In this document: positions 31,837-37,484 of the stretch, piece after piece
Layout of the letters: each line of letters begins with the position of its first letter
How positions within the stretch are numbered: the stretch's first letter is position 1
From: Betaproteobacteria bacterium
GTDB lineage: Bacteria > Pseudomonadota > Gammaproteobacteria > Burkholderiales > Burkholderiaceae_E
Length of the DNA stretch: 37,484 nucleotides
Assembly (NCBI GenBank): GCA_018970865.1
Contig: JAGWVN010000027.1
Span: forward strand, 1 to 37,484
Direction of reading: 5' to 3'
Program-made: the position numbers and the translations under genes
Notes under the pieces: model-generated
Told to the model about the DNA's origin: nothing
The model's input: only the letters and a program-made list of their open reading frames with translations
Databases searched by the model: none

Positions 31837-31850
31837 GGAGGGGATTCTTG
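31837..31850 (+). promoter_or_regulatory. Strong Shine-Dalgarno before a TTG start
   Basis: GGAGGGG (31837-31843) lies four bases before TTG at 31848. The spacing and strength decide the dapC start, since no ATG or GTG stands at the conserved N-terminus. Confidence 0.7.
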
Positions 31851-33041
31851 AACCCTAGACTCAAGACCCTGCAGGCCTACCCCTTCGAGCGCCTGCGCGG
31901 TCTGCTCGAGGGAGTCAGCCCCGATCCCGGCTTCACGCCGCTGAACCTGTCGATCGGCGAGCCCAAGCACCCCACGCCGGCGCTGATCACCGACGCCCTG
32001 ATCGGCTCGCTGGCCGGCCTGTCGAGCTATCCGGCCACCGCCGGCTCGCCCGAGCTGCGCCGCGCCCTCGCCGCCTGGCTCACCCGCCGTCATGGCCTGC
32101 CGGGGGTCGATGCGCGCCATCAGGTGCTGCCCATCAACGGCAGCCGCGAGGCGCTCTTCGCGTTCGCCCAGACCGTGGTCGATCCCGCCGATGGCGCGCT
32201 GGTGGTGTGTCCCAACCCCTTCTACCAGATCTACGAGGGGGCGGCCCTGCTCGCCGGGGCCAGCCCCTGGTATGTCGACCAGAACCCGGCCAATGGCTAC
32301 CGCTGCGACTGGCAGGCCGTGCCTGAGGCGGTCTGGCGCCGCACCCGGCTGCTCTTCGTGTGCTCGCCCGGCAACCCCACCGGCGCGGTGATGACCCAGG
32401 CCGAATGGGATCTGCTCTTTCGCCTGTCCGACGAGCACGGCTTCTGCATCGCCGCCGACGAGTGCTACTCCGAGATCTACCTCGACGAAGCCCAGCCGCC
32501 GCTGGGCGCACTGGCCGCGTCGGTGGCGGCGGGCCGGCCCGACTTCCGGCGGCTGGTGGTCTTCGGCAGCCTGTCCAAGCGCTCGAACGCCCCGGGCATG
32601 CGCTCGGGCTATGTGGCCGGCGACGCCGAGCTGCTCGCCGCCTTCCTGCTCTATCGCACCTATCACGGCAGCGCCATGAGCCCGCCGGTGCAGCAGGCCT
32701 CCATCGCCGCCTGGTCCGACGAGGCCCATGTCGCCGAGAACCGGCGCCAGTACCGCGAGAAGTTCGCCGCGCTGCAGCCCCTGCTCGAACCGGTGCTGGG
32801 CGTGCAGCGCCCGCAGGCCGGCTTCTACTACTGGGCCCGCGTGCCGGGTGGCGACGACGAGACCTTCGTGCGCGAGCTCTACCGGCGCTGCAATGTCCTC
32901 ACCCTGCCGGGCAGCTACCTCGCCCGCCCGGGGCCCGACGGCAGCAACCCCGGACGCGGCCATGTGCGGCTCGCCCTGGTCGAGCCGCTGGCGGCCTGCG
33001 TCGAGGCAGCCGGCCGCATCGTTCGCTTCGTGACCGGCTGA
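31848..33041 (+). CDS. dapC: N-succinyldiaminopimelate aminotransferase
   Basis: A PLP enzyme that makes N-succinyl-LL-diaminopimelate in the succinylase branch of lysine and peptidoglycan synthesis. The 397 residues are a fold-type I aminotransferase: LNLSIGEPKHPTP near the N-terminus, CSPGNPTGAVM, the PLP-contacting DECYSEIY (Asp204, Tyr207), and SLSKRSNAPGMRSGY with the Schiff-base Lys244. The sequence resembles the DapC branch common in betaproteobacteria. Its location directly before dapD supports the call. The start is TTG with a strong ribosome-binding site. Confidence 0.94.
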   Translation: MNPRLKTLQAYPFERLRGLLEGVSPDPGFTPLNLSIGEPKHPTPALITDALIGSLAGLSSYPATAGSPELRRALAAWLTRRHGLPGVDARHQVLPINGSREALFAFAQTVVDPADGALVVCPNPFYQIYEGAALLAGASPWYVDQNPANGYRCDWQAVPEAVWRRTRLLFVCSPGNPTGAVMTQAEWDLLFRLSDEHGFCIAADECYSEIYLDEAQPPLGALAASVAAGRPDFRRLVVFGSLSKRSNAPGMRSGYVAGDAELLAAFLLYRTYHGSAMSPPVQQASIAAWSDEAHVAENRRQYREKFAALQPLLEPVLGVQRPQAGFYYWARVPGGDDETFVRELYRRCNVLTLPGSYLARPGPDGSNPGRGHVRLALVEPLAACVEAAGRIVRFVTG

Positions 33042-33084
33042 GGCCGGCGCGCTTTCCTGATCAACCCCCTTCGAGAGAACCCGC

Positions 33085-33906
33085 ATGAGTGACCTGCAGA
33101 CCACCATCGACCAGGCCTGGGAAGGCCGCAACGAGCTCTCCCCCAAGGCCGCCCCGGCCGCCGTGCGCGAGGCGATCGGCCATGTGCTGGCCGAGCTCGA
33201 CGCCGGCCGGCTGCGCGTGGCCGAGAAGCGCAACGGCGAGTGGATCGTGCACCAGTGGATCAAGAAGGCGGTGCTGATGTCCTTCCGGCTGGAAGACAAC
33301 GCCGTCCTGCCCGCCGGCGGCCTGCAGTTCTACGACAAGGTGCCCACCAAGTTCGCCGACTTCTCGGCGGCCGACTTCGCCCAGGGCGGCTACCGGGTGG
33401 TGCCGCCGGCCGTGGCCCGGCGCGGTGCGTTCATCGGCCGAAATGTCGTGCTGATGCCCTCGTATGTGAACATCGGCGCGTATGTCGATGAAGGCACCAT
33501 GGTCGACACCTGGGCCACGGTGGGTTCCTGCGCCCAGATCGGCCGCAATGTGCATCTGTCGGGCGGCGTGGGCATCGGCGGCGTTCTCGAGCCGCTGCAG
33601 GCCAACCCGACCATCATCGAAGACAACTGCTTCATCGGCGCCCGGTCCGAGGTGGTCGAAGGGGTGGTGGTCGAGGAAAACTCGGTGCTGTCGATGGGCG
33701 TGTTCATCGGCCAGAGCACCAAGATCTTCGATCGCACCACCGGGCAGGTGCTCTACGGCCGTGTCCCCTCGGGCTCGGTGGTGGTGCCTGGCTCCATGCC
33801 GTCGGCCGACGGCCGGGTGAATCTGTATTGCGCGGTCATCGTCAAGCGCGTCGACGCCCAGACGCGGGCGAAGACCGCGATCAACGAGCTGCTGCGCGGC
33901 GACTGA
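33085..33906 (+). CDS. dapD: 2,3,4,5-tetrahydropyridine-2,6-dicarboxylate N-succinyltransferase
   Basis: Transfers succinyl from succinyl-CoA to tetrahydrodipicolinate, the step before DapC. The 273 residues show an N-terminal helical domain, [11 protein letters not shown]-like [14 protein letters not shown], and a left-handed beta-helix with [35 protein letters not shown] and [18 protein letters not shown]. The ATG has GAGAG seven bases upstream. It lies 43 bases after dapC. dapE, the next pathway gene, is not in the window. Confidence 0.97.
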
Positions 33907-33939: not shown

Positions 33940-35094
33940 GTGTCGATGATGGAAAAGCTGCTGCGGCTGCTGGCCGAGAAGAAGGGGTCTGACCTCTTCC
34001 TGTCGCCCGGGTCGGCAGCCCACATCAAGGTCAACGGCCTGACCGTCCCGATCAACCAGCAGCGCCTCGACCCGGCCGCGGTCATGGCGCTGCTGCGCCA
34101 GGTGGTCTCGGAGCGGCACTGGCAGGAGTTCGAGGACCGGCGCGAGCTGAACCTGGGCTACAGCGTGACCGGGGTGGGCAGCTTCCGGATCAATGTCTTC
34201 CGGCAACGCGGCTCGCCAGCCTGCGTCATCCGTTACATCCCGGGCGACATCCCGCGCTTCGAGCATCTCGGCCTGCCCGAAGCCATGCGCCAGATGGTGA
34301 TGGAGCCGCGCGGCCTTGTCCTGGTGGTGGGCTCCACCGGCTCGGGCAAGTCCACCACCATGGCCTCGCTGATCGAGCACCGCAACGAGAACCGGTCGGG
34401 CCACATCCTCACCTTCGAGGATCCGATCGAATTCACCTTCCGCAACAAGCGCTCGATCGTCAATCAGCGGCAGATCGGCACCGACACCGACTCCCTGCTG
34501 GTGGGCCTGCGCAATGCCATGCGTCAGGCGCCCGACTGCATCCTGATCGGCGAGATCCGCGATGTCGAGACCATGTCGGCCGCCATCGCGTACTCGCAGT
34601 CGGGTCACCTGGTGCTGGCCACGCTGCACGCCAACAACGCCAACAACGCGCTCAACCGCATCGTCAGCTTCTACCCGCCCGAGAACCGGCGCGTGATGCT
34701 GTCAGACCTCGCCGGCACCCTGAAGAGCATCGCCTCGCAGCGACTGGTGCGCAGTACCGGCGGCACCCGCATTCCGGCGGTGGAACTGCTGCTGAACACC
34801 CGTTATGTGGCCGAGCTGATCGAGGCCGGCAATCTCGGCGACATCAAGGACGCGATGGAGAAGAGCCTCGCGCCCGGTTCGCAGACCTTCGAGCAGAGCC
34901 TGCTGCAGCTGGTACGCCAGGGCAAGATCACCCGGGAAGACGCGCTGGCCAATGCCGACTCGCCCACCAATCTGCTCTGGCTGATGGAGAACTCCGAGCG
35001 CCAGGTGAATGCATCCGAGAGCAAGAGCGAGAGCACCGAAACCAAGCGGCAGGGCGACGGCCCCTCGTTCGCGGAGTTCCTGCTCAATGTCTGA
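33940..35094 (+). CDS. pilU: Type IV pilus retraction ATPase, PilU type
   Basis: A hexameric PilT-family ATPase that supports pilus retraction from the cytoplasmic side. In 384 residues: Walker A GSTGSGKSTTMASL (from 131), the Asp box ILTFEDPIEF, Walker B CILIGEIRDVETM, and the His box HLVLATLHANNANNAL. The length and the C-terminal tail ending SFAEFLLNV favour PilU over PilT. I keep the GTG at 33940, nine bases after AAAGG; ATG codons at 33946 and 33949 are also possible. No pilT is adjacent. It lies 33 bases after dapD on the same strand. Confidence 0.9.
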   Translation: MSMMEKLLRLLAEKKGSDLFLSPGSAAHIKVNGLTVPINQQRLDPAAVMALLRQVVSERHWQEFEDRRELNLGYSVTGVGSFRINVFRQRGSPACVIRYIPGDIPRFEHLGLPEAMRQMVMEPRGLVLVVGSTGSGKSTTMASLIEHRNENRSGHILTFEDPIEFTFRNKRSIVNQRQIGTDTDSLLVGLRNAMRQAPDCILIGEIRDVETMSAAIAYSQSGHLVLATLHANNANNALNRIVSFYPPENRRVMLSDLAGTLKSIASQRLVRSTGGTRIPAVELLLNTRYVAELIEAGNLGDIKDAMEKSLAPGSQTFEQSLLQLVRQGKITREDALANADSPTNLLWLMENSERQVNASESKSESTETKRQGDGPSFAEFLLNV

Positions 35095-35152: not shown

Positions 35153-37484
35153 TCAGGGCTTGGTTTTCTCCACCTCGCGGCGCTCGAACAGGTAGTCGGT
35201 GTTGCCCTCGTGGCCGGCAAAGCGCGAGGCGCCGTACTGCGGGGTCTGCGGCACATCCTTGCTGACCTCGGTCTTGAGCGTCTCGAACACCGACACGCCC
35301 AGGTTCCAGTCATTCACCTTGCGCAGCAGATCCATGAAGTGCCAGGCGAAGCTGGAGTGGCCTTCCCGCCCGTCGTCGCTCACCGGCTCGTTGCCGCCCG
35401 ATGACATCACCACCGCCGCCTTGCGGCCAAGCAGGCTCTTCGCATCGGCCGCGGTCGGACGGGTAACCCGCTCGCCGCCCGCGAACGCCCCCGAGAAGCA
35501 GCTGTCGGACACCAGCATCAGCTGCTTCGCGCTGATCCGCCCCAGCAGCCGAGAGATGTCGCCATTGGACAGCCAGGACTGCGGCCGGTCGGCGGTGCTG
35601 TCGTTCATGATCCAGTAGCCGGTCTTGCCGTTCTCGATCGCCTCGCCGTGGCCGGCGTAGTAGATGATCACCGAGTCATTGGGGCCGGTCTCCAGGGCGA
35701 GCCTGTTCAGGGTGCGGATGACGGCCTGCTTGGTGGCGTCGGTGAGCAGCACGGTGTCATAGCCCAGCGTTTCCTGGAGCAGCTGGCCCACTGCCTTGGC
35801 GTCGGCGCCCGCGTTTTCCAGGGTGGGGATGTTGCGATCGGCGTAGTTGTCATTGCCGATCAGCACCGCCACCTTGCGCTCGATCTCGGGCACGGCGGCC
35901 TGGCGCACCGCGCGCCGCGACTCACGGGCGAGCTTGCGCACCTCCCGGGCTTCCTGGATTTCCTTCTTGAGTTCCTCGGTCACCAGGCAGTTGCCCTGAT
36001 CGAGCTCGGCCTCGTTCTCGCAGGCCCGCACATCGGCCAGCGCCGGGTTCACCTCCAGGCTGTTGATCGCTGACGCGAAGACCTTCTTCTTGTACTCGGC
36101 GCGAGCGGCGAGCAGGGTCTGCAGTTCGGCCCGGGTCATCTGGCCGGCGCTCACGCTGCGGAAGGCCACCTGCGCGGTGCCGCCCGAACCCGAGGCCGTG
36201 CTGCCCGAACCGGTGCTGCCCGCGGCGGCATCGGTGGCGGTGATCTCCTCCACGCCACCGGTGGTGGTGGTGCCTGCCAGCGCGGGCACGGCATCGAGCA
36301 CCCGGCCGCGGGTGGGCGTGGACATCTGGGTGGGAATGGCCACCGCTGTCACCGCGCTGGCCACCGCCACGGTGGTGACATTGGTCGGCGCGTCACTTGG
36401 TTGGGTCTGGCTCTGGCGATAGAGCGCGCCGTTGCCGGTGCCGGTGGGCTGGGTGATGCCGTAGAACGCGCCGTACTGCTTGAAGTCGGGCACCAGGCCG
36501 CCGAGGGTGTCGGCATCCGGGTTGTTGGAGTAGACCAGCCAGCGCGTGCCGGACGGGATGGAGAACACGCCCGTGCCGGCCTGGTTGACGAAGGCGCCCC
36601 CACCGGCGTCGACGATCAGCGGGTTGGCGCCGCCTTCGCGGGCGGTGATGGTGGTGCCGCTGCGCAGCAGCGCGCCGGCACTGCCCGAAAGCGCCACGGA
36701 AGTGCCGCTGGCCGAGCCGGCGAGATCGAGGGTGCGGGCGTTGACGGTGAGGGTGCCCCCCGGGTTCAGGCCGGTACCGGCGCCGGTGGACAGGTTGCCG
36801 TTGACGGCATTGATGGTGACATTGCCGGAGGCGACCGTGTTGGTGCCGTAGCGGCCGATGCCCACCGGCGCATCGGCTGCGCTGCCTGCGGTGAGCGTGA
36901 TGTCGCGACCGACGGTGAGGTTCAGGTTCAGCGGCTGCAGGCTGGATTCGTTATTGGACAGCCCTGCCCCGGCGCGCGCTGCGCTCCCGCCGGTAAGCGA
37001 GAGACTCCCGCCCACGGTGAGCGCAAGATCGGCAGCAGCGGTAGCTCCCGAAATGTTGCTCGCGCCAATGCGCGTGCCACTTCCCGAACCACCCGTGACC
37101 TGCCCTCCGCTCTGCCCGCGCAGGCTCAGATCACCACCCACGCTGAGGGTTTGCCCCTGGCCGACGATCGCGGCGTAGTTGCCCTGCCCGCCCGTGCCAC
37201 CGAGCAGCGAGGCGTTGCCGGTGATCGAAACCGCCTGCGTGGCCGCATTCCCGCTGCCTGCCGAGATCAGCGCGTAGTTGTTGGTCCCGCCCGATCCGCC
37301 GGTCATGGCCAGACTGGCCGCCGAGACCGACTGGGCTCCAGCCGCGGTCTGGATGAACGCGCTGTTGTTCTCGGCGGTCGTGCCGCCACTGGCCCCGCCG
37401 GTCAGCGTCAGCGCCTTGACGCCGCGGATGGTCTGGGTGCCGGTGTTCTCGGCATAGATCTGCGCGAAGTTGCGTGAGCCGACG
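35153..37484 (-). CDS. Haemagglutinin-like beta-helix protein with C-terminal caspase (C14) domain, 5' end outside window
   Basis: The frame is open to the right edge, so the start is beyond it; numbers here count from the in-frame ATG at 37306. Residues before 250 are Gly/Ser/Thr/Asn-rich, with repeats at the far N-terminal side and phrases typical of large secreted adhesins (VGRDITLTAGS, GNVTINAVNGNLSTGAG). RWLVYSNNPDADTLGGL (255-271) resembles the segment closing the helix in filamentous-haemagglutinin-like proteins. A low-complexity linker (300-378) and a charged, probably helical part (387-478) follow. The caspase-like domain begins KVAVLIGNDNYAD (478) and has catalytic His553 (IIYYAGHGE) and Cys603 (LVSDSCFSGAF). 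The chain ends without a barrel or sortase signal. I infer an exported exoprotein with a cysteine protease domain. Its substrate, secretion partner and full length are unknown. Confidence 0.85.
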   Translation of the reverse strand, partial: VGSRNFAQIYAENTGTQTIRGVKALTLTGGASGGTTAENNSAFIQTAAGAQSVSAASLAMTGGSGGTNNYALISAGSGNAATQAVSITGNASLLGGTGGQGNYAAIVGQGQTLSVGGDLSLRGQSGGQVTGGSGSGTRIGASNISGATAAADLALTVGGSLSLTGGSAARAGAGLSNNESSLQPLNLNLTVGRDITLTAGSAADAPVGIGRYGTNTVASGNVTINAVNGNLSTGAGTGLNPGGTLTVNARTLDLAGSASGTSVALSGSAGALLRSGTTITAREGGANPLIVDAGGGAFVNQAGTGVFSIPSGTRWLVYSNNPDADTLGGLVPDFKQYGAFYGITQPTGTGNGALYRQSQTQPSDAPTNVTTVAVASAVTAVAIPTQMSTPTRGRVLDAVPALAGTTTTGGVEEITATDAAAGSTGSGSTASGSGGTAQVAFRSVSAGQMTRAELQTLLAARAEYKKKVFASAINSLEVNPALADVRACENEAELDQGNCLVTEELKKEIQEAREVRKLARESRRAVRQAAVPEIERKVAVLIGNDNYADRNIPTLENAGADAKAVGQLLQETLGYDTVLLTDATKQAVIRTLNRLALETGPNDSVIIYYAGHGEAIENGKTGYWIMNDSTADRPQSWLSNGDISRLLGRISAKQLMLVSDSCFSGAFAGGERVTRPTAADAKSLLGRKAAVVMSSGGNEPVSDDGREGHSSFAWHFMDLLRKVNDWNLGVSVFETLKTEVSKDVPQTPQYGASRFAGHEGNTDYLFERREVEKTKP
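37103..37484 (-). repeat. Four degenerate repeats of about 30-34 residues in the beta-helix protein
   Basis: Reading the minus strand from the window edge, units share the pattern Asn-x-Ala-x-Ile early (RNFAQI, NNSAFI, NNYALI, GNYAAI), a Gln-x-Val/Ile/Leu-Ser/Arg step in the middle (e.g. AQSVS, TQAVS), and end Leu-x-Gly-x-x-Gly-Gly (e.g. LTGGASGG, LGGTGG). Each unit fits coils of a right-handed beta-helix. The array continues off the window. Confidence 0.65.

Follow-up and report, generated by a model that had tools for sequence, protein, structure and literature searches.

Two-partner secretion (TPS) exports TpsA exoproteins such as FHA/FhaB, HMW1 and EtpA, which have a signal-like start, a TPS domain, a repetitive stalk and an adjacent TpsB. 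To our knowledge, such proteins have adhesin repeats, prodomains or toxins at their C-terminal end. Bacterial metacaspase homologues, or orthocaspases, carry a C14 domain with a catalytic histidine and cysteine, and most discussion of bacterial caspase relatives appears to concern stress, cell death or defence. Here we describe a gene whose product appears to resemble the TpsA exoproteins but differs from them in ending in a C14 protease domain that has both catalytic residues. It is the last gene of a 37,484-nucleotide stretch of DNA (the window), which is a whole contig (C45; JAGWVN010000027.1) of the draft genome G000 (GCA_018970865.1; 3.9 Mb in 192 contigs) of a Betaproteobacteria bacterium. 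On sequence grounds, the architecture, the TpsB partner, the intact catalytic pair and purifying selection are nearly shown, and we infer surface exposure and protease activity. We propose, at about even odds (roughly 0.5), that the gene encodes an exported adhesin-like TpsA with a built-in C14 cysteine protease that is self-processing, its first substrate being its own protein.

Both parts of this protein are of known kinds, and their combination and its spread appear to be undescribed in the literature searched. LepA of Pseudomonas aeruginosa is a trypsin-like serine protease, not a C14 enzyme, and is likened here by description only. It shares with the window protein that a protease is exported by a TpsB, as given in the excerpted text of a TPS review in which the word "caspase" does not occur (PMC5422565). 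Among the parts of a 2012 survey of prokaryotic caspase homologues that were covered, 398 of the 671 proteins lacked any further Pfam domain, WD40, TPR and Sel1 were the most frequent partners, and the terms "haemagglut", "hemagglutinin" and "adhesin" do not appear (PMC3501461); "hemagglut" and "adhesin" are likewise missing from the covered sections of a 2016 aquatic survey (PMC4933709). Zhang et al. 2012, in their work on polymorphic toxins, place caspase-like domains in large exported proteins, as here, and the passages and tables covered tie them to type II and type VII secretion, PVC and TcdB/TcaC (PMC3482391). In its Table 1 HINT is the sole protease of the type V secretion (T5SS) row, and some toxin rows of its Table 2 give T5SS and caspase together, which makes a T5SS case there possible. 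In the part of PMC11077975 that was covered, the relevant terms co-occur in unrelated places. A search by title and abstract, with subscription papers mostly outside it, found no description of a TPS-caspase fusion among the papers listed.

The initial annotation, made from the letters of the window alone, had read one open frame joining a Gly/Ser/Asn-rich stalk to a C14 domain with both catalytic residues, and this reading holds. The frame occupies positions 35153-37483 of the minus strand, the strand of all features of this gene, and consists of 776 codons plus a stop codon, open at the contig edge. It has zero internal stops across its 776 residues, and the frameshift between the two halves against which that annotation had cautioned is not seen. 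Peptidase_C14 matches residues 536-750 (35234-35878) with an E value of 3.3e-22 and 79.8 bits against a cut-off of 21.4, and is the sole Pfam family over its cut-off in the frame. Numbered from the contig edge, the catalytic residues are His612 in YYAGHG (35648-35650) and Cys662 in SDSCFSG (35498-35500), which correspond to the His553 and Cys603 first counted from the ATG at 37306. The nearest solved structures by sequence are Metacaspase-1 (4f6o, E 2.7e-9) and the MALT1 paracaspase (3v4o, E 8.2e-9). Membership of the EACC1-associated caspases (NCBIfam NF047832) was considered and rejected, the protein scoring 82.5 bits, under the cut-off of 140. Three further C14 matches lie elsewhere in G000, on contigs other than C45.

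Three segments precede the protease. Residues 1-345 (36449-37483) form a repetitive stalk rich in Gly, Ser, Asn and Thr, and residues 346-445 (36149-36448) a low-complexity spacer of Thr, Gly, Ser and Ala. A conserved linker follows (residues 446-535; 35879-36148), with a cysteine pair, Cys488 and Cys499 (C-x10-C; 35987-36022), recognized in an alignment of relatives (A2), and a basic stretch directly before the protease. The stalk may well be the haemagglutinin-like beta-helix first suggested for it, judging by its composition and its relatives; its comparison with Pfam returned zero families over cut-off.

The start of the gene very probably lies on another contig. A search of G000 for TPS domains returned two places, one of which, on contig C104, is truncated where the contig stops. 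There a TpsB gene (C104:500-2137; POTRA_2 5.6e-13, ShlB 5.4e-19) adjoins 139 codons of a TpsA start, which comprise a signal-like sequence (in the letters, hydrophobic residues and then HAQA) and the initial third of a TPS domain (PF05860, E 6.8e-15, cut by the contig end). The same split is found in a second species of the genus, G006, in which one contig (C148) carries TpsB and then 1206 codons of TpsA before its end and another (C173; CAIZPE010000173.1) carries the caspase end; if the two parts are one gene, its protein has at least 2041 residues. Contigs C148 and C173 share zero matches and their ends do not overlap. Those of C104 and C45 do not overlap either, these contigs sharing just two short matches, both outside the gene. 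When the 1206-residue part from G006 was searched in G000, its only matches were the C104 start (91%) and, on contig C174, another TpsA gene, and the middle of the window's TpsA therefore seems to be unassembled. That other gene (L057:7414-9678) is a second TpsA gene in G000, also cut at a contig end, and lies near a CHASE2-cyclase gene (L057:3380-5638); another CHASE2-cyclase gene (L160:3060-5189) follows the TPS-caspase gene of G875, a relative described below.

Gene order ties the two contigs together. The convergent neighbour of the caspase gene, 58 bp from its stop codon, is an ATPase gene on the plus strand (33940-35094) that we take to be pilU, beside what are presumably dapC and dapD (31848-33906, plus strand). 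Beyond TpsB, arsC- and prmB-like genes stand on both C104 of G000 and C148 of G006. In these two genomes the caspase gene end adjoins pilU and the TpsB start adjoins arsC(-prmB). Four genus-mates (G003, G002, G007 and G008), all without a close match to the window protein, were compared out of eight others, leaving G001, G004, G005 and G009 aside. In each of the four, arsC comes 12-24 bases after pilU, as measured between match ends, and is followed in turn by prmB, which in G002 begins about 1.1 kb after arsC. The row dapC-dapD-pilU-arsC-prmB is whole in G003 and G008, with dapD unmatched in G002 and both dap genes unmatched in G007. Because pilU, arsC and prmB stand together in these four genomes, C104 and C45 appear to border one insertion, with pilU at its left border, and the simplest reading is a single TpsB-TpsA(C14) insertion between pilU and arsC with a repetitive TpsA middle that was not assembled.

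Complete relatives display the whole arrangement in one frame. With the conserved tail (linker and C14 domain) as query and a limit of E 1e-30 or better, 18 of 399 genomes in a sample of the order matched. Fourteen of these were examined, those left out (G131, G189, G348 and G369) having frames of 594-879 residues. Seven (G050, G051, G214, G359, G409, G335 and G249) encode a TPS domain and C14 in one frame of 1280-2139 residues, and TpsB adjoins the gene in all seven complete loci. G406 is cut at a contig end, a further region of this genome (L122, contig C85) being left out of the comparison, and G000 is split as described; in the remaining five (G055, G218, G117, G151 and G148) C14 is present and a TPS domain was not found by comparison. 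The initial annotation had looked to a TPS domain upstream and a TpsB partner nearby. Both are found on C104 of the same genome, tied to the window by synteny, and in the complete relatives. The C14 tip is conserved across families and the stalks are variable: YDG or MBG repeats occur in G050, G051, G409, G249 and G406, FG-GAP repeats in G050, G214 and G359, and nothing was assigned in G335. MBG-type repeats had been named at the outset as one of the usual alternative endings of such adhesins, a contrast that falls away here, as relatives with MBG or YDG repeats still end in C14.

At a limit of E 1e-40 the tail matched 37 of 369 genomes in a sample of the class and 27 of 398 in one of the phylum. 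We fetched 20 of these regions, 17 with long frames from the phylum sample and three from two genomes of the class sample, leaving out class frames of 1034-1065 residues (G627, G618 and G770) and phylum frames below 1100. Among the 20, the TPS-C14 combination occurs in G538 (two genes, TpsB beside one of them) and G875 (one gene, TpsB adjoining). Long C14 frames did not prove to be TPS proteins throughout: the 17 phylum regions comprise one TPS protein, 14 DUF4347 proteins and two frames cut at the 5' end with neither domain. Five plasmid records matched the tail at a limit of E 1e-15, four of them from Azospirillum, where the genes are annotated just as "filamentous hemagglutinin N-terminal domain-containing protein". 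Three of the four were opened and have TPS and C14 in one frame and the same gene order; TpsB was not found in the stretches opened. Of 156 plasmid records with an Azospirillum-like TPS domain (limit E 1e-10), these four Azospirillum records alone also matched the C14 tail, and the fusion is therefore rare on plasmids. Counted together, the architecture is present in seven genomes of the order, in G538 and G875, and on three Azospirillum plasmids. It is a recurrent, selected fusion with an exporter, found in several bacterial families. Short C14 proteins without a stalk, with the same linker motif and starts that look signal-like by eye, were also seen (L031:9593-10642, L093:7328-8653 and L163:5474-6529); those in L031 and L093 are each followed by another C14 gene.

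The tail of the window gene is under purifying selection. The G006 protein is 91% identical to the window frame over 775 of its 776 residues, and the ratio of nonsynonymous to synonymous substitution rates (dN/dS) between the two is 0.18 in the stalk, 0.13 in the linker and 0.10 in C14; from this alignment and these ratios we take the frame to be real coding DNA. In alignment A2, whose 12 rows are ten TPS-type proteins and two others, the catalytic His and Cys are invariant (12/12). Loss of this pair in homologues, which would have spoken against the initial annotation, was looked for more widely with a simple motif test: the pair is kept in all 16 TPS-linked rows of a set of 54 C14 cores, and the rows in which the test missed the His (two) or the Cys (four) are all without a TPS domain. 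Both columns of the linker cysteine pair are also invariant in the 12 rows of A2, with a spacing of 10 in nine rows, L088 among them, and of 6 or 9 in three. Lys and Arg number 5-10 in the 23-29 residues of basic linker before C14 in 6 of 12 rows.

How would such a protein work? FhaB and LapA are trimmed by separate proteases, of which a built-in C14 domain would be the counterpart. We envision a scenario in which an FhaC-type TpsB exports a TpsA made up of a signal sequence, a TPS domain, a long repetitive stalk, a short linker and a C-terminal metacaspase-like C14 domain. TpsB would bring the stalk out to the cell surface, and the protease domain would either cross last or remain at the base. 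The protease, if active as we expect, would take its own protein as first substrate, most simply at the basic linker just before C14, and stalk or protease would be released when conditions change. In metacaspases and MALT1, the DSC motif, with its Asp placed two residues ahead of the catalytic Cys, goes with cutting after Arg or Lys, and the same motif in the window protease suggests, by analogy, cleavage after these residues. Three features make us favour self-processing: the protease stays constant as the stalks change, neither an immunity gene nor a common substrate gene travels with the cassette, and a basic linker precedes C14 in several members. The role of caspase-like domains in the self-processing of exported proteins described in the covered text of Zhang et al. 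(PMC3482391) also counts in its favour.

Several observations weigh against this proposal. The linkers of G335 (both proteins), G249 and G055 contain only 1-2 Lys or Arg, and that of G406 contains 3. The cysteine pair is not present in the linkers of Azospirillum sp. B510 and G875, both outside A2; a disulfide is therefore not essential to the architecture, and a disulfide stop in the linker was rejected as a general rule. The presence of TPS and C14 in one protein of G000 is drawn from synteny and relatives, the contigs being joined by gene order rather than by overlapping sequence. Finally, in the portion of Zhang et al. covered, processing caspases are usually internal and C-terminal ones are read as toxins (PMC3482391). 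Self-processing is nonetheless our leading, if unproven, mechanism.

The main rival keeps the protease on the surface and turns it outward: an active C14 domain, held outside the cell on its stalk, would cleave other proteins there, whether from nutrients, the matrix or neighbouring cells. The existence of the TPS-secreted protease LepA fits this possibility, as do the terminal position and conservation of C14 on variable stalks and the action outside the cell of other secreted clan CD proteases, the gingipains, noted in the sections covered of PMC3482391. However, work on FhaB suggests to us that a folded alpha/beta domain at the C-terminus might be unable to cross TpsB and might remain periplasmic, and no substrate is indicated. 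We regard an outward-acting protease as possible but rather doubtful.

The genes around the cassette bear on two further alternatives. In G050, G051 and G359 the cassette continues with an FHA-domain protein (TagH by NCBIfam in G050), a PP2C, an OmpA-like protein and a kinase with a DUF4384 domain, and a type VI secretion system (T6SS) cluster adjoins it (L114-L117 with L029, L087 and L030); VipB lies about 18 kb (G050), 32 kb (G051) and 20 kb (G359) from the TpsA gene, the other tss genes being named by eye. This proximity is one argument for the idea that C14 is a toxin tip (Tox-Caspase) delivered to neighbour cells by a contact-dependent or polymorphic toxin; another is that the covered part of PMC3482391 interprets the caspase domains placed C-terminal-most in polymorphic toxin systems as toxins. 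VipB is, however, absent from five of ten genomes, and an immunity gene has no room in the 58 bp to pilU in the window or in the 161 bp that separate the caspase gene of G335 from a convergent mutL-like gene. In G214 and G359 the next gene is large, not small, encoding a Big_5 protein with RTX calcium-binding repeats (L086:10264-13290 and L087:8278-9882, the match in L087 being weak). A conserved tip on a variable stalk is also the reverse of a polymorphic toxin. With variable stalks, a constant C14 tail and just 58 bp of downstream space, a contact-dependent inhibition (CDI)-type toxin/immunity pair is unlikely, and we consider toxin delivery as a whole very improbable.

The same neighbours raise the possibility of a periplasmic signalling protease. 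Export would stall with the stalk displayed, and C14 would work in the periplasm with the OmpA-like protein and the DUF4384 kinase. OmpA-like and kinase-type genes are found in the cassettes of G050, G051, G359 and G409, with DUF4384 shown in the first three, and G409 keeps both without VipB and with neither FHA nor PP2C found in its stretch. In G249, OmpA-like and C14-DUF4384 genes lie directly upstream of the TpsA gene. By contrast, no such neighbours stand at the loci of G000 and G006, within their contigs, in G335 or in the opened Azospirillum stretches, nor in the 8.5 kb downstream of the gene in G406, which is cut upstream. FHA and PP2C, moreover, occur only where a T6SS adjoins, apart from a PP2C remnant that accompanies an OmpA-like gene in G214, a genome without VipB, and may belong to that system; in G406 and G249, VipB lies elsewhere in the genome and neither gene is beside the TpsA gene in the fetched stretches. 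Absent from most loci, FHA and PP2C were rejected as obligatory partners. In G335 (L090:9619-19501), TpsB-TpsA(C14) stands alone between mutL- and miaA-like housekeeping-type genes (named by eye), and seemingly so in G000 and G006, from which we conclude that a pair of genes makes up the minimal unit, to which the phosphorylation genes are optional additions. We hold a signalling role to be quite unlikely. As for the defence role that the initial annotation had offered among others, little speaks for it: the window protein has just a partial match to the general "caspase" model of PADLOC (E 4e-8, positions 5-129 of 453). The C14 fold common to both would account for this match. The G050 kinase (L029:17291-19003) matches several PADLOC kinase models, best mad6 (E 3.3e-46) and PD-T4-6, probably through the shared kinase fold.

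The C14 domain was placed in a quick tree of 54 C14 cores, which has SH-aLRT support only and gave long-branch warnings, one of them for the TPS protein of G875. The set derives from 67 frames that matched the C14 profile, 13 with cores below 170 residues having been dropped, and is without the three other C14 proteins of G000; as the genes of the window and of G006 are split, their rows received the TPS label manually. In this tree the C14 domain of the window clusters with those linked to TPS at a support of 93 for eight rows and 84 for 11 rows (ten TPS rows and G406), both below the mark of 95, and the enclosing set of 16 rows, at support 95, also holds C14 proteins that lack a TPS domain. 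Azospirillum and G875 have their TPS-linked C14 domains elsewhere in the tree, so more than one fusion is possible, and well-supported branches force at least two changes of TPS label.

A C-terminal C14 domain related to that of the window was also seen in giant DUF4347 proteins of 1082-2375 residues (L144, L147, L152 and L154, and ten among L145-L159). The N-terminal DUF4347 domain was detected by Pfam in four and by our own profile in 14; a LEPR-type motif is present in 10 of the 14, and Ig or cadherin repeats exceed the cut-off in three of the four scanned. The gene in L144 adjoins OEP and HlyD genes. We tentatively suggest, while leaning against it, that the C14 module, a helical linker with its caspase domain, is a general self-acting tail of giant surface proteins in this phylum. 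It might be a built-in switch for the release or shedding of adhesins that serves two unrelated export routes, two-partner secretion and, for the DUF4347 proteins, a type I-like route judged from the neighbour genes of one locus.

A conserved family of exported caspases in adhesin-like proteins with a dedicated exporter would widen the roles of these proteases. It would also provide a directly testable case of whether a caspase domain cuts its own stalk at the cell surface, for which Azospirillum has uninterrupted copies.

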